A stretch of DNA of 64,000 nt from Candidatus Iainarchaeum sp. (GTDB lineage: Archaea > Iainarchaeota > Iainarchaeia > Iainarchaeales > UBA10219). How positions within the stretch are numbered: position 1 is the stretch's first letter; the number at the start of each line of letters is the position of its first letter. Location: NCBI GenBank assembly GCA_018304425.1, contig JAGVWE010000005.1, positions 1 to 64,000 on the forward strand, given 5' to 3'. The position numbers were made by a program, and so were the translations under genes. The notes below the pieces were generated by a model, which was not told where the DNA came from, did no database searches, and saw only the letters and a program-made list of their open reading frames with translations. Below, in pieces: positions 1,438 to 16,198 of this stretch.

Positions 1438-2526
1438 ATGTCGATTTGCCTCCAAGTGGTTCCAAGCGAAGCCCAGAAGGCCATCGTCTTCCTCAAGGAA
1501 AACGGTTTGTTCGACGGGAACCTCAAGCCCGCGCACGCTGCCGGGGCCGTGTTCTTCCCGCTGGCCCGCAGGCCCTCGCAGGCCCAGGCGAAAAAGCTGA
1601 AGTCTTTGGCGCCGTCCGCGAAAACCGTGCAGTGGAAACTCGAGCGCTTGCATGTCCGCCCGCGCTCGCTGGAAGAGGCATTGGAGAGAAAGCTGTCGCC
1701 AGCCGAGCGCAAGGCCTTGATTGGCTCCTTTGACACCGTGGGAAGCCTGGCCGTCATAGAGGTGCCGGACGCGCTCAAGAAGAAAGCGGGGCTCATCGGC
1801 CGTGCCCTGCTGGAAGTCAATGCCGCGTTGGAGTCCGTGTACCAAATCGCGTCCGCTCACAAGGGAAAATTCCGCGTGCAAAAGATTTCCTGGCTCGCGG
1901 GAAAAAAACAGAAGCGCGCGCACTACAAGGAGGCCGGCTGCGAGTTCGTCGTCGACCTTGACAAGGTGTTCTTCAGTCCCCGCCTCTCCGGGGAACGCCT
2001 GCGCATCGCGCAACTCATCCAGCCAGGGGAAGTGGTTGGAGCGTTCTTTGCCGGGGTGGGGCCGTTTCCCATCTTGTTTGCCCGGCACTCGCCGATGGCG
2101 AAGGCCTATGCCGTCGAACTCAATCCAACTGCGGTCAAGAACCTGAAGGAGAACATCCGCCTCAACCACGTGGAAGACCGCGTCGAGCCCATCCTTGGTG
2201 ACGTGAACAAGGTCGTGCCAAAGCGCCTGCGCGGCCTATGCGACCGCGTCGTCATGCCCCTGCCCCATGGAGGGGAGGACTTCCTGGAAGCCGCTTTCCT
2301 CGCCCTCAAACCCGCCGGCGGGTTCATCCATTTCTACCAGTTCACGGACAAGCAAAACCCCTTGGCCGAGCCCCTGCGGCGCGTGGAAGCCGTGGCCCGG
2401 AAGTTCGGCCGCTCGGTCGAGGTTCGGGCCTGGCGCGTGGTGCGCAGCTTTTCCCCTGTCAAGGTGCAGGTCGTGCTGGACGTGGAAGTGCGGGCAAAGC
2501 CTAACAATTTAGGTAAGAATAAATAA
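1438..2526 (+). CDS. trm5: tRNA (guanine37-N1)-methyltransferase Trm5-type
   Basis: A 362-residue class I SAM methyltransferase of the Trm5/Taw2 family, which makes m1G37 in tRNA to prevent frameshifting. The catalytic half carries motif I as FFAGVGPFPI (residues about 203-212), then AVELNPTAVKNLKENI, LGDVNKVV and VVMPLPHGGEDFL, the last matching the family NLP/MPLP loop. The usual acidic residue before FAGVGPF is replaced by alanine. The N-terminal third (D1/D2-like) is less conserved. Assignment as Trm5 rather than the wyosine enzyme Taw2 is inferred from length and from the absence of a second copy in the window. The start at 1438 faces the divergent DUF63 gene. Confidence 0.82.
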   Translation: MSICLQVVPSEAQKAIVFLKENGLFDGNLKPAHAAGAVFFPLARRPSQAQAKKLKSLAPSAKTVQWKLERLHVRPRSLEEALERKLSPAERKALIGSFDTVGSLAVIEVPDALKKKAGLIGRALLEVNAALESVYQIASAHKGKFRVQKISWLAGKKQKRAHYKEAGCEFVVDLDKVFFSPRLSGERLRIAQLIQPGEVVGAFFAGVGPFPILFARHSPMAKAYAVELNPTAVKNLKENIRLNHVEDRVEPILGDVNKVVPKRLRGLCDRVVMPLPHGGEDFLEAAFLALKPAGGFIHFYQFTDKQNPLAEPLRRVEAVARKFGRSVEVRAWRVVRSFSPVKVQVVLDVEVRAKPNNLGKNK

Positions 2527-2548
2527 TGCATAAGACTTCTATCTTGCT

Positions 2549-3631
2549 ATGGTCCCGCTTCGTAGCGTGGTTTTTGTTGGGTTCTTGTTTTTGCTTGTTC
2601 TTGTCGCGGGTTGTGTGATGGGTGGCGGCGTTCCGCGTCCGGTGAAGCCTTTGCCTTTGGAGGGGGTTATGGGTCTGGTTAAGTCTTTGCCGGAGGTTCG
2701 CGCGCTTTTGGCCGAGTACCCCGATGCGGGGATTTATACGTTGTTTTGGTTTGAGGCCGCGGTTCAGAAGAACCTTGAGTCCATTCGGCGGGATTGCGGG
2801 GAGTCGTTTAAGGTTGCCAGTTACTACAAAGTCGACGTTTTTGATGGTGTTTTTGATGCTCCCCCCGTTGCCACTCTTTGGTTGGATGCCGCAACCCATG
2901 AAGTCGCGTGCGTGGTTAAGTCGCCAGGCATTGGCGGATTTTGTGGTAACTCCACGTATGCTCCATGCGTAATCGATGTGGATTGTGTGGGGGGAAGCAG
3001 TGGGCAGTGTGTAATGGACACGTGCCGAAGCACAGCTGAAGCCGCCCTGCGTATTCCTCAAAGTGTTAAGGAGGCAGAATGGTGCCAGATTGCGGACATC
3101 CGTGTTTCGGAATGCCTTTTCAGCATGGGTCACGATTACCCTCCCACTGTCAATTGCCTGTGCGTGGACAACCAGTGCCAGTGGGGGAGAGGCGTAAAGG
3201 TTGCGCCGCCTCCGGTGCCGCCCAACTTGGTCGCCTGTGAAACGCTCGACGAAAAAACATGCGGGACGCGGGTTGACTGCAAACCCGTTTACGGCGCCAG
3301 CCGCTGTGAATGCCAGCCGGACGGAAGCCAGCAGTGCACGACCGACACCGTGTTCAAGGGCTGCGAGGCGCCGGAACCGGATGAGGTCGGCATTGTCCGG
3401 GAATACTTCCATCAGCAGTGGTTCAGGGTCGCGGACGGCTGCGGAACCTTCAACCAGGAGACCTGTATGATGGAACCAGACCGGATTTATAGCCAAGGCA
3501 AAACCGAGAAGGGCTACGTGGTGGTCGTTGAAACGTATTGCGGCTTTTGGCCCCCCATGGATTCTGCGCCTCTTGAAACATTTACCTATTTGGTGAAATT
3601 TGACGGCACCATTGTCATGGAGCCGGAATAA
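2549..3631 (+). CDS. Cysteine-rich putative lipoprotein of unknown function
   Basis: A 360-residue exported protein. Residues 1-22 form a signal peptide with a lipobox-like LVAGC, suggesting lipid attachment at the Cys. The mature part has about 24 cysteines, many in spaced pairs (CGNSTYAPCVIDVDC, CLCVDNQC, CKPVYGASRCECQPDG), as in disulfide-rich extracellular domains. I recognise no family. Codon choice changes along the gene: the first ~280 bases favour T-ending codons (GTT, TTG, GGT) while the remainder uses the GC-ending codons of the neighbours, hinting at a mosaic or transferred 5' part. An AATAAATA element about 27 bases before ATG suggests a leaderless start. Confidence 0.7.
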   Translation: MVPLRSVVFVGFLFLLVLVAGCVMGGGVPRPVKPLPLEGVMGLVKSLPEVRALLAEYPDAGIYTLFWFEAAVQKNLESIRRDCGESFKVASYYKVDVFDGVFDAPPVATLWLDAATHEVACVVKSPGIGGFCGNSTYAPCVIDVDCVGGSSGQCVMDTCRSTAEAALRIPQSVKEAEWCQIADIRVSECLFSMGHDYPPTVNCLCVDNQCQWGRGVKVAPPPVPPNLVACETLDEKTCGTRVDCKPVYGASRCECQPDGSQQCTTDTVFKGCEAPEPDEVGIVREYFHQQWFRVADGCGTFNQETCMMEPDRIYSQGKTEKGYVVVVETYCGFWPPMDSAPLETFTYLVKFDGTIVMEPE

Positions 3632-3729: not shown

Positions 3730-4380
3730 ATGAACATCGTCTTGTTGGGCCCACCGGGAACGGGTAAAGGAACCATCGCGCAGTTCCTGCACCGGGAGTA
3801 TGGCTTCGAACAACTCTCGACTGGCGACCTCCTCCGGAAAGAAGCCGCTGCTGGCACGCCGTTTGGCAAGCAGGTCGAGCCCATCATGAAGTCCGGTGCC
3901 TTGGTCAGCAACGAGTTGGTCGCGGAAATCGTGGCCTCGAACCTCGCGCGCTTGAAGGGGAAGAGCCTGGTCTTGGACGGCTTCCCACGGAACATGGAGC
4001 AGGCCGAGCTCTTCGAAAAAATCATGCGCGTGCACCAGGTAAAAATCGACCTGGCATTGAACGTGGACTCGAGCCGCGAGACGGTAGTCCGGAGGCTTTC
4101 CGCGCGGAGGCAGTGCCCGAAGTGCAACAAGGTCTACGGCGAGAACATCCCGCCCAGGAAGCCCGGCGTGTGTGACGCGTGCGGCGTGCCCTTGTTCCAG
4201 CGCGCGGACGACCAGCCCGAAGTAATCGAAAAGCGTTTCAGCATTTACCTGGAGTCCGCCAAGCCACTCCTCGCCTACTACCAGGGACAGGGCATCCTGA
4301 AAAACGTGGACGGCAACCAAAGCGTGGAGAGTGTTTTCCAGCAGGTTTCCGCGGTTTTAGGCCAGCAAAAAGGCTTATAA
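3730..4380 (+). CDS. adk: Adenylate kinase (zinc-binding LID type)
   Basis: A 216-residue adenylate kinase converting ATP + AMP to 2 ADP. The P-loop GPPGTGKGT is at residues 8-16, the AMP-site STGDLLR near 35 and DGFPRN near 84. The LID domain has four cysteines (CPKCNKVYG and CDACGVP), the structural zinc site of many Gram-positive bacterial and some archaeal enzymes. This is the bacterial-type fold rather than the trimeric archaeal AdkA. The in-frame extension upstream to 3637 is rejected because ATG 3730 gives the canonical MNIVLLGPPG start and lies about 27 bases after a TATA element. Confidence 0.95.
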   Translation: MNIVLLGPPGTGKGTIAQFLHREYGFEQLSTGDLLRKEAAAGTPFGKQVEPIMKSGALVSNELVAEIVASNLARLKGKSLVLDGFPRNMEQAELFEKIMRVHQVKIDLALNVDSSRETVVRRLSARRQCPKCNKVYGENIPPRKPGVCDACGVPLFQRADDQPEVIEKRFSIYLESAKPLLAYYQGQGILKNVDGNQSVESVFQQVSAVLGQQKGL

Positions 4381-4413
4381 ATTCTTTTAAGGCAGAATCC
4401 TAGGGGTATTTGA

Positions 4414-5706
4414 TTGGACGATTTGCGGGAACTGACTGGAAGCCCGGAAAAAAACGATTTCCTGCCCGTCCTCCTCATCCTGGCCCTGGTTGTGCTGGTC
4501 GGCTTCTTTTTGTTGACCACCCAGCCGGCCCAGCCCGTTCAACCACCGGCCGCCAAAGGACCGGAACCGGTCCCCGGGGCAACGGTGCCGCCAAGCGCGG
4601 AAGAGCCGAAGACCGTGGCCGAAACCCCTGCGCCTGTGCCCGAACCCGTTCGTGAGCAGCCGAGGCCGCAGCCGAGGCCAGAGCCGAGGCCCGCGCCCGA
4701 ACAAGCTTCCCTCCAAGCCGATTTGGTGGTGGACGCGATTAACATCCTGCCCCAACCTGTTACCCTAAAAGCGTTTCCCGTGGCCGTGAAGTACAGCAAT
4801 GCCGGCACCGGCAACGCGGCCGCCTTCCAGGTGAACGTGGAAGTGAAGAACAAGAAGGAAGTCGTGTTCACCCGGTCGTTTTCGTTGGAGGGCCTGGGCG
4901 CCAAGGCCTCCGCGGAAACCAAGTTCGAGTTGAGTCTCACCGATGCCGGCGACTATGCTTTGACTACCTGGGTGGACGCCGGCAACGGCGTAAGCGAAAC
5001 CAGCGAAGCCAACAACGAGCACCGGCAGGTGTTCCACGTCTACGGGGAACCGGACCTGGTGATTTCATTCTTGGACGTTGAACCCAACCCGCCCGCGGAA
5101 ATGCAGGAAACCTACGTCTCGTTGCGGGTGAAAAACATCAGCCCCCTGCCCGCGCCCAAGGGAACCTACGTGCGGCTGGAATTGCCGAACGCGGACACGA
5201 GGTACTTCGTGTTACGCATCCCCCAGGTCCTGCAAGCCGAGCAGGAATACGAGTTCCCCAAGATGCGGGTGCGGTTTTCCGGGAACTACGCGCAGATAAA
5301 CGCGTTGGTGGACTCCACGGGAGTCCTGCACGAAGACAACGAGGCCAACAACGAAGCCCACGTGGACGTGAACCCCTCCATTCCGGACGTCGAAATCGAT
5401 GGCGTGCGGGTGTCAGGGCCCTCCGAGCTCTCGGTGAAAGTGGCCAACAACTCCAATGCCTACCTCGCGGAAAAGTTCAGGGTCTTCCTCAAGGCGGACG
5501 ACCTGCTGTTTGGCGGGGTCGATAACACTTCTTTCCTGGTCGCGGAACGCTTTGACCCCGGCCAGGTCATCGAGTACAAGGTGCGGAACATTTCAGCGGC
5601 TCGCAAGCCGTATACCCTCTACGTGGTCGCGGACCCGGATGCCCAGGTCTTGGAGGGCAACGAGAACAACAACACCGTCAAAGTCCAGGTGCAGTTCCCC
5701 CAATAA
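4414..5706 (+). CDS. Membrane-anchored CARDB-domain surface protein
   Basis: A 430-residue protein with a TTG start preceded by AGGGG about 7 bases upstream. Residues 1-14 are polar, followed by one membrane segment (LPVLLILALVVLVGFFLL). A Pro/Glu/Arg-rich spacer follows (residues ~37-98, containing PRPQPRPEPRP). Three Ig-like CARDB domains come next, each opening with a DLVV- or EIDG-type strand and carrying the NEANNE or NENNN loop typical of CARDB (cell adhesion-related domain in bacteria and archaea). It is probably displayed outside the membrane and involved in adhesion or scaffolding. It begins a run of three exported proteins. The spacer DNA is a 12-bp tandem repeat described separately. 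Confidence 0.75.
   Translation: MDDLRELTGSPEKNDFLPVLLILALVVLVGFFLLTTQPAQPVQPPAAKGPEPVPGATVPPSAEEPKTVAETPAPVPEPVREQPRPQPRPEPRPAPEQASLQADLVVDAINILPQPVTLKAFPVAVKYSNAGTGNAAAFQVNVEVKNKKEVVFTRSFSLEGLGAKASAETKFELSLTDAGDYALTTWVDAGNGVSETSEANNEHRQVFHVYGEPDLVISFLDVEPNPPAEMQETYVSLRVKNISPLPAPKGTYVRLELPNADTRYFVLRIPQVLQAEQEYEFPKMRVRFSGNYAQINALVDSTGVLHEDNEANNEAHVDVNPSIPDVEIDGVRVSGPSELSVKVANNSNAYLAEKFRVFLKADDLLFGGVDNTSFLVAERFDPGQVIEYKVRNISAARKPYTLYVVADPDAQVLEGNENNNTVKVQVQFPQ
4657..4690 (+). repeat. 12-bp tandem repeat (CAGCCGAGGC core), three units
   Basis: Units start at 4657, 4669 and 4681. Read in codon phase 1 they encode QPRP/EPRP. The same DNA unit recurs in three other genes of the window in other phases. 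Confidence 0.7.
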
Positions 5707-5736
5707 CCGGCAAGGCGGTTCCCGGGCCGATTGGCA

Positions 5737-5752
5737 AGGCTTATATACTACT
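5737..5752 (+). promoter_or_regulatory. Promoter of the first tandem surface paralogue
   Basis: AAGGCTTATATACTAC, a strong TATA element, is nearly identical to the element at 7557-7572 before the paralogous gene. This suggests the promoter was duplicated with the gene. Confidence 0.6.
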
Positions 5753-5778
5753 TATAATCAATTATTTTGGGTAATCCC

Positions 5779-7530
5779 TTGGGTAAAAAGCTGTTCGTCG
5801 TCGCATTGGCGTTTTTGCTGGTTTTTTCGACGGTCTCGGCCGCGTTCTGGGATGATTTCTTCAAATGGTTCAATCCCACCGGCGAAGCCGCCAAGAAGAA
5901 AGCGTCTCCCCCGGCAGCCAAGCCGGAAGTCGTGAGCAAGGCCAACATCACGGACTTGAAGCTGGAGCCGGCAGGCGAGGTCGTTGGACAAATCAGGCCC
6001 GTTCGCTTGAGCGCAAAGGTTTCGGCCACGAAGGGCAGCGGCAAGGTGCTCGTCGTCCTGCGGCTGCAAAGCGAGGGAAAAACCCAGGGCAAGGACAGCC
6101 TGCTCTTGGACTTGCAGCAGACCAACCAACCCCAGACCGTCAGCGATGATGCCATGGCGGTAACTGGAACGGTGCGCGGCTTGGTGCGCGTATGGCAGAT
6201 TCCACCCAATGGCAAGCCCACGTTGCTGCGGGAAAAAAGCATTACCCGCAAGTTGGGTGCCGCGACCCCCAAGAACGCGACCACGGCCGTGACCCAGGTA
6301 ACGGTTACCAATCCATTCACCAGCCTGTCAAGCGCCGTGGCGGGTGCGGTGCGGCCCGTGCGCTTTGGCGCCACGGTCACCGCCACCGAGGGCAGCGGTC
6401 CCGTGCTGGCTATCCTGTTATTGGAGGACGCGCAAGGCGTCACCCACGGCAAAGAAGCCGAGTATCTGACCCTGCAAGCGAATGTCCCGCAAACCGTGAG
6501 CGATGACGTCCTGTCCTTGACCGGCAAGGTGAAGGCCAGGATACGGGTTTGGCAAATCAACCCCCGGGGCCCCAACAAGTTGTTGGTGGAAGAAAAATTC
6601 AGTCAAGACTTTGGCGGCCCAGGCGATGAAGCCACTGGCGCAGTGATGGGTGGTTCAGAGGCAGGGGACAGCGCAGCCGGAGGCCCGGACGAGGCCGGCG
6701 CACCCGAGCCAGGCCAAACAGGAACCGAGGCCCCGCCCGGTGGAACCCCCGTTCCGTCCACCCTGCCAACGCCTGGAACCACAACGCCTGGAACCAGTGT
6801 TCCGGAAGTCCCTGGCACGGTTCCCCCGGCAGCCACTCCACCGGCCCAGCAACCTGATGACCCGGCCACGGTTCTGACCCAGTTCAACGCCAACATGGCC
6901 GGCGAGTATTACGTTAAGTACACGGGCATGATGGTCCTGAGCAGTCCGGAAAACATGGCCGGCAGCCGAACCATGTACTCCAAGTCTTCCAAGTATTACA
7001 AGCACGGAAAAATGCGGGATGACACCGAGAGTTATGTTGAGGGCAAACCCTTTCGCTGGCGCATGTTTTACTCCATGAACCGGAATGACCCTGCCGTTAT
7101 ATGCCTTTCCAGCCAGGGAAGCAGGGAGTCCTGCCTCAAAGTGGATTCCAGCCAAGCAAAGCCACCGGCTAACACGCCTTCCGTTCCAACGGTTGCCGAA
7201 GCACAGGCCATGGTTGGAACGATAAGTGCTGCCATGGACCCGTCCCGTGTGATTTTGGGCGAGACCACGCAATGCGTTCGGTTTACTTTCACGGGCGGCC
7301 AAATCGCCAACGCCACCGGCGGCGTGTATTCTTCGGTGATGTGCGTCACCCACGACGGAATCCTGTTGTACAATGGCGCCGTGGATTCGCAGGGCCAGAA
7401 GTTAGTTGAACTGCAGGCCATCGCGTTCTCGCGCCGCGTGGCAGACCGGGACCTAGTGCCACCCAGGGCCCTAACTGGCACGGCCGGGGCCATGGATCTG
7501 CTTGGGGCTTGGGTGCGGGCCGCCCGCTGA
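5779..7530 (+). CDS. Exported protein with two copies of a novel repeat domain (tandem paralogue 1)
   Basis: About 583 residues from TTG 5779; TTG 5767 is an alternative start. The 5779 start makes the N-terminus align with the next gene. Residues 1-21 are a signal peptide, followed by FWDDFFKWFNPTGEAA, nearly identical to the paralogue at 7624. Residues ~57-158 and ~173-278 are two copies of a ~100-residue probable beta domain sharing a RPVR start, a KGSG or EGSG turn, PQTVSDD and a final RVWQI. A Thr/Pro/Gly-rich linker (residues ~280-375) leads to a C-terminal domain with paired cysteines. I do not recognise the repeat or the C-terminal domain; the latter loosely recalls LolA-like extracytoplasmic folds. 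Probable surface protein. Confidence 0.7.
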   Translation: MGKKLFVVALAFLLVFSTVSAAFWDDFFKWFNPTGEAAKKKASPPAAKPEVVSKANITDLKLEPAGEVVGQIRPVRLSAKVSATKGSGKVLVVLRLQSEGKTQGKDSLLLDLQQTNQPQTVSDDAMAVTGTVRGLVRVWQIPPNGKPTLLREKSITRKLGAATPKNATTAVTQVTVTNPFTSLSSAVAGAVRPVRFGATVTATEGSGPVLAILLLEDAQGVTHGKEAEYLTLQANVPQTVSDDVLSLTGKVKARIRVWQINPRGPNKLLVEEKFSQDFGGPGDEATGAVMGGSEAGDSAAGGPDEAGAPEPGQTGTEAPPGGTPVPSTLPTPGTTTPGTSVPEVPGTVPPAATPPAQQPDDPATVLTQFNANMAGEYYVKYTGMMVLSSPENMAGSRTMYSKSSKYYKHGKMRDDTESYVEGKPFRWRMFYSMNRNDPAVICLSSQGSRESCLKVDSSQAKPPANTPSVPTVAEAQAMVGTISAAMDPSRVILGETTQCVRFTFTGGQIANATGGVYSSVMCVTHDGILLYNGAVDSQGQKLVELQAIAFSRRVADRDLVPPRALTGTAGAMDLLGAWVRAAR

Positions 7531-7556
7531 GCGCTAATTCCCCCCCGTAACTGGAA

Positions 7557-7572
7557 AGGCTTATATATTACC
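7557..7572 (+). promoter_or_regulatory. Promoter of the second tandem surface paralogue
   Basis: AAGGCTTATATATTACCT matches the element at 5737-5752. Predicted transcription start is near 7592, leaving a short leader with the SD sequence GGAGGG before GTG 7624. Confidence 0.6.
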
Positions 7573-7623
7573 TGTCCATCTATTAGTACGGGCCTGTTTA
7601 AAGGTTTCATTGGAGGGATTTGC

Positions 7624-9375
7624 GTGGACAAAAGATTGCTCGTAGTCTCGTTAGCGTTTTTGCTGATAGCCTCAACGGTTTCGGCCGGCTGGTTAGAGGA
7701 CTTGTTCGGCTGGTTCAACCCCACAGGGGAAGCCGCAGCGGCTCAGAAAGTAACCGCAAAAGAAATTTCGGTGGTTGGAGCCAACCCCACCAAAGCCGCG
7801 CTAAGCGCGCCTGCCGTGGCGGCAACCGGCAGCCCCTTGGTCGTGAATTGCACGGGCGAGTCCACCATGCGGCCACCGAATAGCACCCTCCCATTTAAGG
7901 TTGAAATCGCTGTTAACGGAAAAGAAGACGCGCAGTTCACCGTGCCCCAAGTGTATGCAAGCGGCAGCACCTTCACGGCCCAAGCCACCTTGACGGGTTT
8001 CACGGCTGCATCAGCCGGAAGCACGGCAACCATTACCTGCACGCCCAAGAAGATACGCCAGGGCAGTGGAGTCAGCTTCCACAAGTCAACCGGCAAAGTC
8101 CAGTTCAGGAACGTAAAGCCGGACTTCGTGGTTTCAGCCGTTGACGCGCCCTACTTGAGCGGCCAGAAGAGCGCGAATCCCTTGCGGCTCGGCGAAGCCT
8201 TTGCCGTCAAGGTCACGGTAACCAACACCTCGGACGCGGCCTATAACGGCCCGCTCTCAGTAGAGGTGAAAGTGGGCAGCGACCCCACGCAGTACATAAA
8301 TGCAGTGGGAAGCGCTTCCCTTGCGGCAAGCCAGGGAACCTTTGATTTCATGGTGGACGCCGTGGCACCTGCTGCGCGGCCAGCCAACGTCTCAAGCCAG
8401 GAATGGAGCCAGCAACTGGTTGCCACGGTCAATCCTCCTGGAGAGTTGGCCATAGATGAATTGAAGAACGATTCCAAGAACTCGAAGACTGGTTCGGTCA
8501 GAGTCGGCAACGTGCCCCTTCCAGGGGGAGTAGGCCAGCCGCCTGGCAGCGGAGCCTATGACCTTGAAGCCCTGGTCACCCATACCCCGACCACGGACGC
8601 CGAGGGCAGGCAAGTCCTCACCTTCGACTTCAAGGTGAAAAACAACGGAACGCCTTTGAACCTGGACACCTTTGGCGGCGTCTATGTCAGGTACTTCATC
8701 ACCGGGGTGCCGGTTAGTGCGGTTAAGGTGCCAGTAGAACAGGTCAGCGCGGCCAGGCTGAGAAAGCCCTCCGGGCAAACCTATGGGTTAACAGGCTATT
8801 ATGGGCTGCAGCAGGCGCTTGCCCAGGCCAGCGACTACGCGACCCTGTTCTCCATTCAGGTGACAAGGCCCACTGGCAACACCGCAGCCATTTCGGCTCG
8901 GATGGTCATTGACCCCATGGGGGTCACGAGCGGCCAGGACTCAAGTCCAGCCAACAACGAGTTCACCGATGCGGTGGCCTATAACGCGCCACCCGTACAG
9001 GATTGCACGGCAACCAATACCTGTAAGGTGACCCAGGCAACGGCTACCAGTCCAGCGGTCGCGGCTTCAGGAGCCAAGACCGGCGTACTGCAGCCGGTCG
9101 CCTTGACCACGACCTTGAAGGCCACGACCGGCCAAGGACAGGTCATGGTGGTGACGGTCCTTGAAAGGACGAACGGAATCCTCTTGTCCAAGCAAATCGG
9201 CTTGGTCTCGTTGGCCGCGAACGCGGACACGCCGTTCACGGCGAGCCACTACACGACCCGCAGGGCCGGCAGGGCAACCGTTCGGGTGTGGACCTTGGAC
9301 GGAAAGCACAAGCTGGCCGAGCGTTCCCAGAGTTTCAACCTCGGCGGAACCGAGGAAGACTCGGACGCCACGTGA
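7624..9375 (+). CDS. Exported protein with CARDB-like domains and a C-terminal repeat domain (tandem paralogue 2)
   Basis: A 583-residue protein from GTG 7624, with SD GGAGGG seven bases upstream. The N-terminal 38 residues share about 26 identities with the preceding gene (signal peptide plus the WFNPTGEAA cassette). The middle has an Ig-like domain with paired Cys, a CARDB-like segment starting at VKPDFVVSAVD and a second starting at AYDLEALVTH. The last ~105 residues repeat the domain found twice in the neighbour (LQPVALTT, TGQGQVMVVTVL, RATVRVWTLDG). It appears to be a modular extracellular protein of the same system, with shared end modules and different middles. Function unknown; adhesion or envelope assembly is inferred from CARDB content only. 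Confidence 0.7.
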   Translation: MDKRLLVVSLAFLLIASTVSAGWLEDLFGWFNPTGEAAAAQKVTAKEISVVGANPTKAALSAPAVAATGSPLVVNCTGESTMRPPNSTLPFKVEIAVNGKEDAQFTVPQVYASGSTFTAQATLTGFTAASAGSTATITCTPKKIRQGSGVSFHKSTGKVQFRNVKPDFVVSAVDAPYLSGQKSANPLRLGEAFAVKVTVTNTSDAAYNGPLSVEVKVGSDPTQYINAVGSASLAASQGTFDFMVDAVAPAARPANVSSQEWSQQLVATVNPPGELAIDELKNDSKNSKTGSVRVGNVPLPGGVGQPPGSGAYDLEALVTHTPTTDAEGRQVLTFDFKVKNNGTPLNLDTFGGVYVRYFITGVPVSAVKVPVEQVSAARLRKPSGQTYGLTGYYGLQQALAQASDYATLFSIQVTRPTGNTAAISARMVIDPMGVTSGQDSSPANNEFTDAVAYNAPPVQDCTATNTCKVTQATATSPAVAASGAKTGVLQPVALTTTLKATTGQGQVMVVTVLERTNGILLSKQIGLVSLAANADTPFTASHYTTRRAGRATVRVWTLDGKHKLAERSQSFNLGGTEEDSDAT

Positions 9376-9438: not shown

Positions 9439-10305
9439 CTAGGGCAGGAGGAGTCCTGGCACCACGTCTTCGAGGAACGCGGCCGCGAACAAGAGGAGCA
9501 GGGCAATCCCCAGGGTGAGCGCGACGTGACTGGTTATCTGGAGGAACCGCTGCCCGAACCACTGCTCGCGGGCCAGGGCCTTGTTCAGGATGCCACCTGC
9601 CATGGCGCCCAGGAAGTAAACGGCTGCCTCGGCCAGGGTGTGCGGCAGCACTGAGAGCATGATTAACGCGAACTGCGCCCAGGGGTCCAGGCCGGAGACG
9701 TAGACAATGTTTTCCGCCTGCGCGGCGAAGACGTGGCCCCACACCGAGGCATTCCAGACCACGATGAAGGTCGTGCCATACTCGAACAGCAAGGCGATGA
9801 GGAACGCGACCACGAGCACGCCGAAATTGTTTTGGAGTACGCTCCAGAAGAAGCCGCTGAAGTTCACGGCTTCCCCTACCGGGCTCCTGCCGCCCGGGCC
9901 GAAGGCGGACTGTTCGCCGAACAACCGGTAGGTCTGGTCATCGGGCAGCCACAGGGTGAGCAAGGCAAACACCAGGAAGATGCCGGCAAACGAGTAGAGG
10001 TAGGCCTTGAAGAGTTTCTTGTTGTCCTGGAAGAGGCTGGACAGGGTGACTGCCTGGCCGTGGGTGTTCAGTTCCGTGAAGGAGACTCCCTTGCGCTCGA
10101 CCACGGTCTCCCTGCCTTCGAGGAGCTCGGTCAAGGCAAACAGCCGGTCAATCATGGGAATCAAGGCAATGGAGGTGAAGAAGACCGAGACGATGCCGAT
10201 GTTGTTGGGGAAAATGAGGGAGGCAACGCCGATGCCGAGCAAGGCGTACAGGACGCCGGAGAAAAAAAAGCGGAGCGCCGGTTTTCCGAGCTGCGGCGGG
10301 GTCAT
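9439..10305 (-). CDS. SpoIIM/DUF95-like integral membrane protein
   Basis: A 288-residue polytopic protein with about six membrane segments. The sequence around FGVLVVAFLIALLFEYGTTFIVVWNASVWG and the late LPHTLAEAAVYFLGAMAGGIL resembles the stage II sporulation protein M (DUF95) family, widespread in archaea; its archaeal role is unknown. A soluble stretch of ~60 residues (ELLEGRETVVERKGVSFTEL onward) precedes the second half. It is divergent from the small membrane protein at 10359, and a single TATA element lies exactly midway between the two start codons. Confidence 0.75.
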   Translation of the reverse strand: MTPPQLGKPALRFFFSGVLYALLGIGVASLIFPNNIGIVSVFFTSIALIPMIDRLFALTELLEGRETVVERKGVSFTELNTHGQAVTLSSLFQDNKKLFKAYLYSFAGIFLVFALLTLWLPDDQTYRLFGEQSAFGPGGRSPVGEAVNFSGFFWSVLQNNFGVLVVAFLIALLFEYGTTFIVVWNASVWGHVFAAQAENIVYVSGLDPWAQFALIMLSVLPHTLAEAAVYFLGAMAGGILNKALAREQWFGQRFLQITSHVALTLGIALLLLFAAAFLEDVVPGLLLP

Positions 10306-11813: not shown

Positions 11814-12911
11814 ATGGGTAAAAGGACTCCATTGTATGATGCGCATGTGCGGTATGGGGCGCACATCGTGGACTTCGCGGGCTTTGACATGCCCGTCTAT
11901 TACACCACGGTCATCGACGAGCACCACGCTACCCGCAACCAGGCCGGCTTGTTCGACACCAGCCACATGGGCGAGATACGCGTCAAGGGCCGGCAGGCGC
12001 TGGACCTCATCCAGGAAGTCGTTTCCCGGGATTGCTCGAAGCTCGTGGACGGCCAGGTCGCGTTGTGCGTGATGTGCAATGACCAGGGCGGCATCATGGA
12101 TGACTGCACGGTCAACCGGTTTGGCCCCCAGGACTACATGATGGTCGTTAACGCCGGAACCAAGGACAAGGACTTGAACCAGATTCTCAGCGTGCAGGCG
12201 GCCAGGAACCTCGATTGCCAGGTCATCGACGAAACCGATGACACCGCGAAACTCGACCTGCAGGGGCCCTTCGCGGAAGTCATCCTGCAGAAGATGGTGG
12301 ACATCAACCTGAACGTCATCAAGTACTATCGCTTCGCGCTCGGAAAACTGGACGGCGTGGACGCCATGCTTTCGCGTTCCGGTTACACGGGTGAGGACGG
12401 CTTCGAGATTTACTTTCCCGCCCAGTACGCGGAACGCATGTGGGAGAAGCTCTTTGAACTGGGCAGGGAACACGGCTTGAAGCCCTGCGGCCTTGGCGCG
12501 CGGGACACGCTTCGCACCGAGTCCGGCTACATGTTGTACGGCAACGACATCGACGAGTGCACTACGCCCCTGGAATGCGTGTACGGCTGGGTCGTGCACC
12601 TGGACAAGAAGTCCTTTGTCGGCAAGGCCGCGTTGGTCCGGCAGAAGCACGAGGGCATCAAGAAAAAGCTGGTGGGCTTCGAGATGCTGGACAAGGCCGT
12701 TGCACGGCACAATTACCTGTTGTACATGGCCAACCGCGAGGTTGGGAAGGTGACTTCCGGCTGCCCCTCTCCCACGCTGGGAAAGAACATCGGCATGGCC
12801 TATGTCTCCGAGGGCCTCGCCGAGGTGGGGAACACGGTGGACGTGCGCATCCGGGCCGAGTTCCACAAGGCCCGGATGGTTCCGATGCCGTTTTACAAGC
12901 GGAAGAAGTAG
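11814..12911 (+). CDS. gcvT: Glycine cleavage system T protein (aminomethyltransferase)
   Basis: A 365-residue tetrahydrofolate-dependent aminomethyltransferase. It takes the methylamine arm from the H protein, releasing ammonia and forming methylene-tetrahydrofolate. Diagnostic segments are RTPLYDAHVRYGAHIVDFAGFDMPVYY at the N-terminus (split here at family-typical positions), GLFDTSHMGEI, GYTGEDGFEIY and LGARDTLRTESGYMLYGNDI. Length is normal. It is the first gene of a tight same-strand run gcvT-gcvH-gcvPA-gcvPB-lplB-lplA. A GTTTAAAATGG element about 35 bases before ATG is the likely promoter. A C1-pterin system is implied; which pterin the organism uses cannot be told. Confidence 0.95.
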   Translation: MGKRTPLYDAHVRYGAHIVDFAGFDMPVYYTTVIDEHHATRNQAGLFDTSHMGEIRVKGRQALDLIQEVVSRDCSKLVDGQVALCVMCNDQGGIMDDCTVNRFGPQDYMMVVNAGTKDKDLNQILSVQAARNLDCQVIDETDDTAKLDLQGPFAEVILQKMVDINLNVIKYYRFALGKLDGVDAMLSRSGYTGEDGFEIYFPAQYAERMWEKLFELGREHGLKPCGLGARDTLRTESGYMLYGNDIDECTTPLECVYGWVVHLDKKSFVGKAALVRQKHEGIKKKLVGFEMLDKAVARHNYLLYMANREVGKVTSGCPSPTLGKNIGMAYVSEGLAEVGNTVDVRIRAEFHKARMVPMPFYKRKK

Positions 12912-12977
12912 CCGCGGGTAACGCTTAAAAAGGCTTGCTAAGTTCAATCATAACAGTCAAAAGGTGGGGGATTTCCA

Positions 12978-13367
12978 ATGGAGAATCCGAGGGAACTGAG
13001 ATATACCAAGGAACACGAGTGGGTGAAGATCGAGGGGGATACCGCGACCATGGGCATTTCGGATTACGCCCAGCACGCCCTGACCGACATCGTTTACGTG
13101 GAGCTGCCCAAGGAGGGCCGCGAGTTCAAGCAATTCGAGAGCATTGCCGTCGTCGAATCCGTGAAATCGGTTTCGGACGTCTATGCGCCGCTCAGCGGCA
13201 AGGTCACTGAGCTTAACAAGGCAGTTACGGAGAAACCCGAACTCGTCAACAAGGAACCGTTCACGGCCGGCTGGCTGTTCAGGTTCAAGGCCAAGGACTT
13301 GAATGAATTGAACAACCTCATGACCGCCGAACAATACGATGCCTATCTTGCATCGCTCAAGCATTGA
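12978..13367 (+). CDS. gcvH: Glycine cleavage system H protein (lipoyl carrier)
   Basis: A 129-residue lipoyl-carrier protein that shuttles the aminomethyl group between P, T and L proteins. The lipoylation site is Lys63 in ESVKSVSDVYAP, in the correct hairpin context after SIAVVE. The N-terminal ELRYTKEHEWVKIEGD and the C-terminal EQYDAYL are family hallmarks. Its lipoate presumably comes from the ligase pair encoded at the end of the same run, since no lipoate synthase is seen here. GGTGGGG lies upstream as the SD region. The L protein (dihydrolipoamide dehydrogenase) is not in this window. Confidence 0.95.
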   Translation: MENPRELRYTKEHEWVKIEGDTATMGISDYAQHALTDIVYVELPKEGREFKQFESIAVVESVKSVSDVYAPLSGKVTELNKAVTEKPELVNKEPFTAGWLFRFKAKDLNELNNLMTAEQYDAYLASLKH

Positions 13368-13400
13368 ATATTTTCGCTTAGCGTTCACAGTGGGGATGGC

Positions 13401-14741
13401 TTGGACTACGTTCCGAACACGGAGAAGGAAAGCCGGGAAATGCTTCAAGCCATCGGCGTGAAATCCGTTGACGAGCTGTTCCAGGACATCCCGGCCGCGA
13501 AGAAAGTAAAGGGCTTGCTGAACGTTTCCACCGAAATGAGCGAGGTCGAGGTCACACAGTTGCTGACCGACCTTGGCGCCAAGAACGCCAACGCGGCCAC
13601 GCACGCCATCTTCCTGGGGGCGGGGGCGTATAACCACTTCACGCCCAGCGCCGTGCCCTACCTGGCCTTCCGCGGCGAGTTCTACACCGCTTACACGCCT
13701 TACCAGGCCGAGGTTTCGCAGGGCACCTTGCGGGCCATCTTCGAGTTCCAGACCCACATCACGGAATTGACCGGGCTCGAGGTCTCCAATGCTTCCGTCT
13801 ACGACGGCTCCACGGCCCTGGGCGAAACCATTGCCGGCGCCTGGCAGGTCAACCAGCGCAAGCAACTCGTGATTTCCAAGACCGTGCACCCCCATTACCG
13901 GGAAGTCATCCGCACCTATTGCTGGTCGAAAGGCGTTGAAGTCGTCGAAGTCGGCTATAAAGACGGCAAGACCGACTGGGATTCCTTGAAAGCCGTGGTT
14001 TCGGACAAGACCTCGGCGGTCATGGTGCAGAGCCCGAACTTCTTCGGCTGCATCGAGGAAGTCGACCAGGCCGCGGAAATCGCGCACGCGAAGGGCGCGG
14101 TGCTCGTAACCACTGTGACGGAAGGCAGTTCTTTGGGCTTGCTGGAGGCCCCGGGAAAACTGGGCGCCGACTTCGTGGTCGGGGAAGGACAGGGCTTCGG
14201 CATCCCCATGATGTACGGCGGCCCCTATCTGGGCTTCATGGCCACGAAGAAGGAATACGTCCGCACCCTGCCAGGGCGCCTCGTCGGAAAAACCGTGGAC
14301 AGCGAGGGCAAGGAAGGCTATGTCATGACCCTGCAGGCGCGCGAGCAGCACATCCGCCGCGAGCGAAGCGTTTCCAACATCTGTACGAACACCGGCTTGA
14401 TCGCCTTGATGGCCACCATTTACCTTTCACTGGTCGGCAGGCAGGGCCTGCAGCGCGTGGCCCAGCAGTCTTTCCAGAAGGCCCACTACGCCCACGCCCA
14501 GCTATGCAAAATCAGGGGCGTGCAACCGCTGTTCAACCAGCCCTTCTACAACGAGTTCGCCCTGCGCGTGCCCGATGCGAAGAAGGCCAGCGAAGCCATG
14601 ATGGAGGCCGGCATCATTCCTCCACTGGACCTGGGGGCGTATTACCCGGAACTGAAGAATTGCCTGCTCGTCTGCTGCACGGAAATGAACTCCAAAGCCC
14701 AAATCGACCACCTGGCGAAAGTCCTGGAGGGCTGCCGATGA
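13401..14741 (+). CDS. gcvPA: Glycine dehydrogenase (decarboxylating) subunit 1
   Basis: A 446-residue N-terminal half of the split P protein, as in archaea and many Gram-positives. With subunit 2 it forms the PLP enzyme that decarboxylates glycine and passes methylamine to GcvH. Seen are YVPNTEKESREML, GAGAYNHFTPSAVPY, TPYQAEVSQGTL, EFQTHITELTGLEVSNAS and the RREKATSN-like region RRERSVSNICTNTG. The TTG start at 13401 follows GGGGATGG at SD distance. The TGA overlaps the next ATG (ATGA), indicating translational coupling with gcvPB. Confidence 0.94.
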   Translation: MDYVPNTEKESREMLQAIGVKSVDELFQDIPAAKKVKGLLNVSTEMSEVEVTQLLTDLGAKNANAATHAIFLGAGAYNHFTPSAVPYLAFRGEFYTAYTPYQAEVSQGTLRAIFEFQTHITELTGLEVSNASVYDGSTALGETIAGAWQVNQRKQLVISKTVHPHYREVIRTYCWSKGVEVVEVGYKDGKTDWDSLKAVVSDKTSAVMVQSPNFFGCIEEVDQAAEIAHAKGAVLVTTVTEGSSLGLLEAPGKLGADFVVGEGQGFGIPMMYGGPYLGFMATKKEYVRTLPGRLVGKTVDSEGKEGYVMTLQAREQHIRRERSVSNICTNTGLIALMATIYLSLVGRQGLQRVAQQSFQKAHYAHAQLCKIRGVQPLFNQPFYNEFALRVPDAKKASEAMMEAGIIPPLDLGAYYPELKNCLLVCCTEMNSKAQIDHLAKVLEGCR

Positions 14742-16198
14742 GCGATGTCAAGCTCATTTACGAGCGCAGCGTTCCCGGGCGCACCAGCAACCACATCACG
14801 CTGAAAGTGGATGTGCCCCTGACCGAGGTCAAGCAGGCCATTCCCGCCAAATACCTGCGCAAGGAACTCGGCCTCCCGGAAGTGAACGAAGTCGACGTCA
14901 TCCGGCACTACATCGGCCTGTCAAAGCTCAACTACGGCGTGGACAACGGCTTTTATCCCCTGGGCAGCTGCACCATGAAGTACAACCCGAAAGTCAATGA
15001 CGCGATGGCCGCGTTGCCAGGTCATGGTCTTATCCATCCCATGCAGCCCGTCGAGATGTCCCAGGGCGCGTTGCAATTGATGTACGAATTGGAGAAGGAC
15101 CTAGCCGAAATCACGGGCATGGCCCGCCTGACGCTCCAGCCAGCTGCAGGCGCGCACGGAGAATTGACCGGCATCATGACTGCCAAAAAGTATTTCGAGC
15201 ACAAGGGGGAGGGCGTGCAGCGGAACACCGTCCTCGAACCGGATTCCTCTCACGGCACCAACCCGGCTTCCGCGAACATGTGTGGTTTCAAGGTCGTGGA
15301 AGTCAAGTCCAACAAGAACGGCTCGGTTGATTTGGATGACTTGCGCGCGAAAATGAGCGAGAACGTGGCCGTGTTCATGCTCACGAACCCGAACACCCTG
15401 GGCTTGTTTGACCCCACCATCGAGGAAATCGCGAAAATAGTGCACGCGAAGGGCGGCCTCATGTACTGCGATGGCGCCAACCTCAACGCCAACGTCGGCA
15501 TCGTCCGCCCCGGGGACTTGGGATTCGACATCATCCAGTTGAACCTGCACAAGACGTTTTCAACCCCCCACGGCGGCGGGGGCCCCGGTTCAGGCCCAGT
15601 AGGCGTTAAAAGCCATCTGGTGCCCTTCCTGCCCAAGCCTTCCGTCGAAAAGGTGGGCGAAAAATACACCCTGGACTACAATAAACCGCATTCCATCGGC
15701 CGGGTCAAGGCTTTCCAGGGCAACTATGGCATTTTATCGAGGGCCTACACCTATATCAAGTCCCTGGGACGCGAGGGGCTACGTAAAGTCGGGGAAAACG
15801 CGGTCTTGAACGCCAATTACATGATGGCCCGGCTCCGGAAACACTATCACTTGGCGTACGACCGGGTGTGCCAGCACGAGTTCGTGTTAAGCGATGAAGG
15901 CATGCCCAATGGCGTAACCACCATGGACATCGCGAAGCGGCTGCTCGACTACGGCTTCCACTCCCCCACCATTTACTTTCCCCTCATCGTGCACGGCGCC
16001 ATCATGATTGAACCAACTGAAACCGAGAGCAAGCAGACCCTGGATGCCTTCATTGAAACCATGGTCCGGATTCACGGGGAAGCCCAGTCCAACCCGGGCC
16101 TGGTGAAGGGCGCGCCGCACACCACCTTCGTGAAGCGCTTGGACGCCGTGAAGGCCGCCCGCGAGCCAGTGCTGCGCTGGCAGCCCCCGGGGAAGTGA
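14738..16198 (+). CDS. gcvPB: Glycine dehydrogenase (decarboxylating) subunit 2
   Basis: A 486-residue C-terminal half of the split P protein with the PLP site: the Schiff-base Lys lies in NLHKTFSTPHGGGGPG (residues ~271-286). Other hallmarks are FYPLGSCTMKYNPKVN, EPDSSHGTNPASANM and CDGANLNANVGI. The start at 14738 overlaps the gcvPA stop; longer in-frame extensions upstream lie inside gcvPA and are rejected. It ends four bases before the small lipoate-ligase subunit gene. Confidence 0.95.
   Translation: MSDVKLIYERSVPGRTSNHITLKVDVPLTEVKQAIPAKYLRKELGLPEVNEVDVIRHYIGLSKLNYGVDNGFYPLGSCTMKYNPKVNDAMAALPGHGLIHPMQPVEMSQGALQLMYELEKDLAEITGMARLTLQPAAGAHGELTGIMTAKKYFEHKGEGVQRNTVLEPDSSHGTNPASANMCGFKVVEVKSNKNGSVDLDDLRAKMSENVAVFMLTNPNTLGLFDPTIEEIAKIVHAKGGLMYCDGANLNANVGIVRPGDLGFDIIQLNLHKTFSTPHGGGGPGSGPVGVKSHLVPFLPKPSVEKVGEKYTLDYNKPHSIGRVKAFQGNYGILSRAYTYIKSLGREGLRKVGENAVLNANYMMARLRKHYHLAYDRVCQHEFVLSDEGMPNGVTTMDIAKRLLDYGFHSPTIYFPLIVHGAIMIEPTETESKQTLDAFIETMVRIHGEAQSNPGLVKGAPHTTFVKRLDAVKAAREPVLRWQPPGK

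Follow-up and report, generated by a model that had tools for sequence, protein, structure and literature searches.

We propose that two adjacent genes of Candidatus Iainarchaeum sp., here called A and B, encode two proteins, secreted or held at the surface, which form an ancient tandem pair with common holding parts and different heads, a reading to which we assign a probability of about 0.6. Both genes lie in the window, the whole 64,000-nucleotide stretch of contig JAGVWE010000005.1 that was analysed (Table 1). In this small-genome archaeon, they would act as structural proteins next to a third exported protein that carries CARDB domains. Each gene would have a TATA/BRE promoter of its own, of the ordinary type, and a Sec-type signal peptide would direct each product to export. 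Common holding or docking parts would be formed by the aromatic segment that both proteins carry after the signal peptide and by one or two Ig-like repeat domains, and the variable parts would be the working heads: in A, a putative ligand-binding half-barrel resembling LolA/RseB at the tip of a flexible linker, and in B, a probable string of CARDB/Ig-like domains of the adhesion type.

Gene A runs from a signal peptide and N-terminal cassette through two repeat domains and a Pro/Thr/Gly-rich linker to a LolA-like C-terminal domain. In gene B, the cassette is followed by an Ig/CARDB-like middle and a single repeat domain at the C-terminus. The two genes thus have in common a promoter box, the cassette, and a domain of ~110 residues; beyond these, BLAST returned no credible similarity between them. 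The preliminary description of this DNA had named the same three shared elements, all of which were confirmed, the cassette and the domain copies far above chance, and had correctly stated that the middle parts differ. It had overlooked that the promoter box is a genome consensus, that the C-terminus of A is a separate conserved module, and that an exported CARDB gene lies upstream. Hydropathy analysis places the strong hydrophobic segment of both proteins at the N-terminus only.

Table 1. Features of the A/B locus and related sequences, with positions in the window unless another contig is given.
Feature	Position	Strand	Remarks
Promoter box AAGGCTTATAAA before upstream CARDB gene	4370-4381	+	1 mismatch
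Upstream exported CARDB protein	4414-5706	+	PF07705, E 4.7e-28, 3 stretches
Promoter box AAGGCTTATATA (BRE/TATA) of gene A	5736-5747	+	
Gene A	5779-7530	+	583 aa, TTG start; ORF could open at 5767
Cassette of A	5779-5892	+	Signal peptide ending STVSA, then AFWDDFFKWFNPTGEAA
Repeat domain copy 1 (gene A)	5932-6258	+	
Repeat domain copy 2 (gene A)	6277-6618	+	Structure predicted
Low-complexity Gly/Ala/Pro/Thr/Glu linker of A	6619-6876	+	Read from sequence
Predicted LolA/RseB/LprG-like half-barrel of A	6877-7530	+	Several homologues in same order are lipoproteins
Promoter box AAGGCTTATATA of gene B	7556-7567	+	
Probable Shine-Dalgarno of gene B	7613-7619	+	GGAGGGA region; putative, from sequence
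Gene B	7624-9375	+	583 aa, GTG start
Cassette of B	7624-7737	+	Signal peptide ending STVSA, then GWLEDLFGWFNPTGEAA
Middle of B	7744-9000	+	Probably three Ig/CARDB-like domains
Repeat domain copy 3 (gene B)	9013-9351	+	
Two tandem lipoproteins with LolA-like domain	L002:1408-2214, 2225-3031 (G000:C1, ~316.7-318.3 kb)		

The exact 12-bp box AAGGCTTATATA occurs twice in the 1.48-Mb genome, before A and before B, within a 20-bp stretch that is 90% identical between the two genes. Copies with one mismatch number 17, compared with 1 for the reversed control, and most of them lie ~16-70 nt 5' of an ORF, one of the 17 being the box at 4370 in front of the upstream CARDB gene; AAGGCTTATATA is therefore the usual TATA/BRE element of this genome. 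What had been described as a duplicated promoter is thus an identical box in both places, but one that mostly reflects the consensus of the organism. The exact match may have been inherited from the duplication, and no special explanation is necessary. For the start of A, the TTG at 5779, not the position at 5767, aligns with the GTG at 7624 of B. Gene A may be leaderless or nearly so.

The cassettes of A and B are identical at 26 of 38 residues (BLAST E 1e-13), in agreement with the count of about 26 given earlier, and cleavage of the signal was judged by eye to fall after VSA. Within the cassette, WFNPTGEAA is invariant while the flanking residues vary, a pattern that would suit a sortase-type retention or sorting tag, FxWFNPTGEAA, marking exported proteins for an anchoring or processing enzyme. 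The 11 residues that precede WFNPTGEAA in A, with a helical hydrophobic moment at the 97th percentile, point the same way, but in B the corresponding moment does not stand out (80th percentile). If a dedicated machinery read the tag, more clients would also be expected, whereas the segment was absent from the rest of the genome and from 86 relatives of the phylum, and the search for further proteins combining a signal peptide with WFNPTGEA, proposed in the preliminary description along with the tag itself, yielded none beyond A and B. The three exact WFNPTGEA matches in genome_contigs are bacterial, stand in unrelated contexts, are internal or fragmentary, and correspond to about the number expected by chance. 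We consider such an enzyme-read tag very doubtful, and a segment confined to two genes is unlikely to serve generally as a sorting tag. It could plausibly form a helix at the membrane interface or prolong the export signal. Matches to the cassette profile outside A and B were almost only signal-peptide-like hydrophobic stretches, and FKIFNPTGEAF, at the aspS/rpsO gene end (L014), is a chance overlap in a protein that is not exported.

The signal peptide and the aromatic segment might also constitute one uncleaved membrane anchor, from which A and B would hang by their N-termini. Neither protein has a C-terminal anchor or a lipobox, and the aromatic stretch directly follows the hydrophobic core, which would fit this arrangement; however, the VSA/A and VSA/G junctions look, by eye, suited to cleavage by signal peptidase I, and we regard an uncleaved anchor as possible, though rather unlikely. 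Within the reading that we prefer, a secreted or surface-held pair, A and B could even be freely secreted, given that neither has a C-terminal anchor.

The three copies of the repeat domain are related at pairwise identities of 44, 35, and 32% (E 7e-29, 3e-17, and 1e-9). Their bit scores of 88, 58, and 38 exceed the maximum of 26 obtained in 100 shuffles per pair, which bears out the earlier claim that the domain occurs twice in A and once at the end of B. The domain has no match in Pfam and nothing credible in NCBIfam. A profile built from the three copies, a search suggested in the preliminary description, recovered only those copies from the genome itself, 74 other genomes of the order, and 86 genomes of the phylum, so that the label of an undescribed domain is upheld at this scope. 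A pattern scan of genome_contigs and viral_contigs, of a kind that reaches mainly close relatives, found none, and no counterpart of protein A was found in phages. Sequence matches in the PDB were marginal, to a ciliary protein over ~30 residues, and were judged to be due to chance.

Structure prediction of one copy, likewise proposed at the outset, gave a confident result. AlphaFold modelled copy 2, on the three-row alignment, as a seven-strand Ig-like sandwich (pLDDT 87, pTM 0.80); this was the only copy folded, and the fold of copies 1 and 3 is taken from homology. The best PDB matches found with Foldseek were the Ig-like domains of GH2 glycosidases, ApaG, and the Wzt C-terminal domain (E 5e-5 to 1e-3), and TM-scores against Ig-like structures were mostly 0.5-0.75. 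The sequence identity to these three is only ~3-17%, with no evidence of a common function. A fold search among viral structures returned only weak, generic sandwich matches. On the strength of the AlphaFold model, the repeat domain is predicted to adopt a known and very common fold, the Ig-like sandwich, and its sequence defines a new family.

CARDB (PF07705), an Ig-like domain of the adhesion type, is encoded by both B and its upstream neighbour at 4414-5706, and the repeat domain could conceivably be a diverged member of that family, with which it shares a similar length, the predicted fold, and the neighbourhood. However, none of the three copies matches the CARDB profile at E values up to 10, profile comparison with the three upstream CARDB domains does not rise above the reversed control, and in structure the domain comes closest to GH2 Ig-like and ApaG folds. 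We therefore regard a CARDB origin as improbable.

The head of B is closer to CARDB. Protein B as a whole matches the Pfam family at E 5.6e-5, with 23.7 bits against a cut-off of 22.7; the pieces of its middle, taken singly, fall below this cut-off. The second piece has weak profile similarity to the upstream CARDB domains, and the first domain contains a possible C76-C139 disulfide. The upstream protein comprises an N-terminal hydrophobic segment (~residues 16-34, by hydropathy), a Pro/Glu-rich linker, and three CARDB domains.

Other genes surround the locus. Positions 2549-3631 encode a Cys-rich probable lipoprotein (LVAGCVMGGG lipobox) with no Pfam match. On the opposite strand, positions 9439-10305 encode a SpoIIM-family membrane protein (PF01944, E 5.8e-10), with homologues in nearly all relatives and a second copy on contig C1. 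Relatives do not preserve the order of the genes around adk and SpoIIM. Further downstream, at 11814-16198, lies a row of genes that we take to be a glycine cleavage system (GcvT, GcvH, GcvPA, GcvPB).

The C-terminal 217 residues of A are homologous to two tandem lipoproteins encoded elsewhere in the genome (tblastn E 7e-13 and 2e-6). Homologues, several of them with lipoboxes, also occur sporadically elsewhere in the phylum, in nine other genomes, which places this LolA-like family in 10 of 87 phylum genomes. A model built from eight sequences (pLDDT 79) matches RseB, LprG, and LolA in Foldseek with E 4e-7 to 1e-4 and a probability of 1.00; the TM-scores are low (0.3-0.48), and the fold call rests on the combined Foldseek score. 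The module is thus predicted to resemble the half-barrel of these lipoprotein carriers, but it differs from them in having no Pfam match and no lipobox, and in being joined to Ig-like domains. The head of A probably binds a lipid, a lipidated protein, or a hydrophobic peptide. A bolder proposal would see A and B as an envelope device of two parts: lineage-specific Ig-like domains would hold a LolA/RseB-like head that senses or carries lipids or lipidated proteins at the archaeal cell envelope, and FxWFNPTGEAA would serve as a new membrane-interface anchor; we hold this to be a long shot.

The preliminary description had correctly recognised exported modular paralogues with an undescribed domain, but had also presented them as a surface system diversifying by shuffling, and this part finds no support as a process of the present. 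For the three pairs of domain copies, identical codons at identical residues number 18, 19, and 11, against 18.2, 14.6, and 12.6 expected; the cassettes have 14, against 9.7 expected from codon usage. Silent sites are at or near saturation between the copies, so the duplications are old, and nothing points to conversion or exchange in recent times. In A the repeat domain stands close to the N-terminus, whereas B carries it at the C-terminal end, and this difference makes a past rearrangement likely. A system still swapping domains among A, B, and other genes, in the manner of VARTIG, would fit the different order of the shared parts, the adjacency of the genes, and the restriction of the domain family to this genome. 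Codon choice between the copies is nevertheless saturated, in a comparison within one genome of the family, and the genome holds no further copies with which to recombine. Active shuffling is accordingly highly improbable, and the locus cannot be used to argue for a diversification mechanism at work.

The old tandem pair that we favour adds a new Ig-like sequence family, so far in one archaeal genome, and links this orphan family to a predicted LolA-like fold of lipoprotein carriers, which turns up here and there across the phylum and has no Pfam entry. Most surface proteins of such small-genome archaea lack annotation, and the A/B locus offers concrete domains for study.

Two known arrangements invite comparison. 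In VARTIG of Thermococcales, a hypervariable C-terminal Ig domain recombines between strains (PMC8416519). The gene arrangement is alike, an Ig-domain gene being followed by another gene with Ig domains, but the copies described here are old and no string of small membrane proteins lies downstream. Makarova et al. (2021) also reported that many archaeal loci encode several Ig-domain proteins whose organisation is different but overlapping (PMC8416519). Here, too, exported Ig-fold/CARDB proteins stand side by side, and their domain organisation differs but overlaps, although the present locus comprises only 2-3 genes, has a repeat domain without sequence relatives, and carries a LolA-like head. 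The A/B locus most likely belongs to this known kind, in which archaeal loci encode Ig-fold surface proteins whose architectures overlap.
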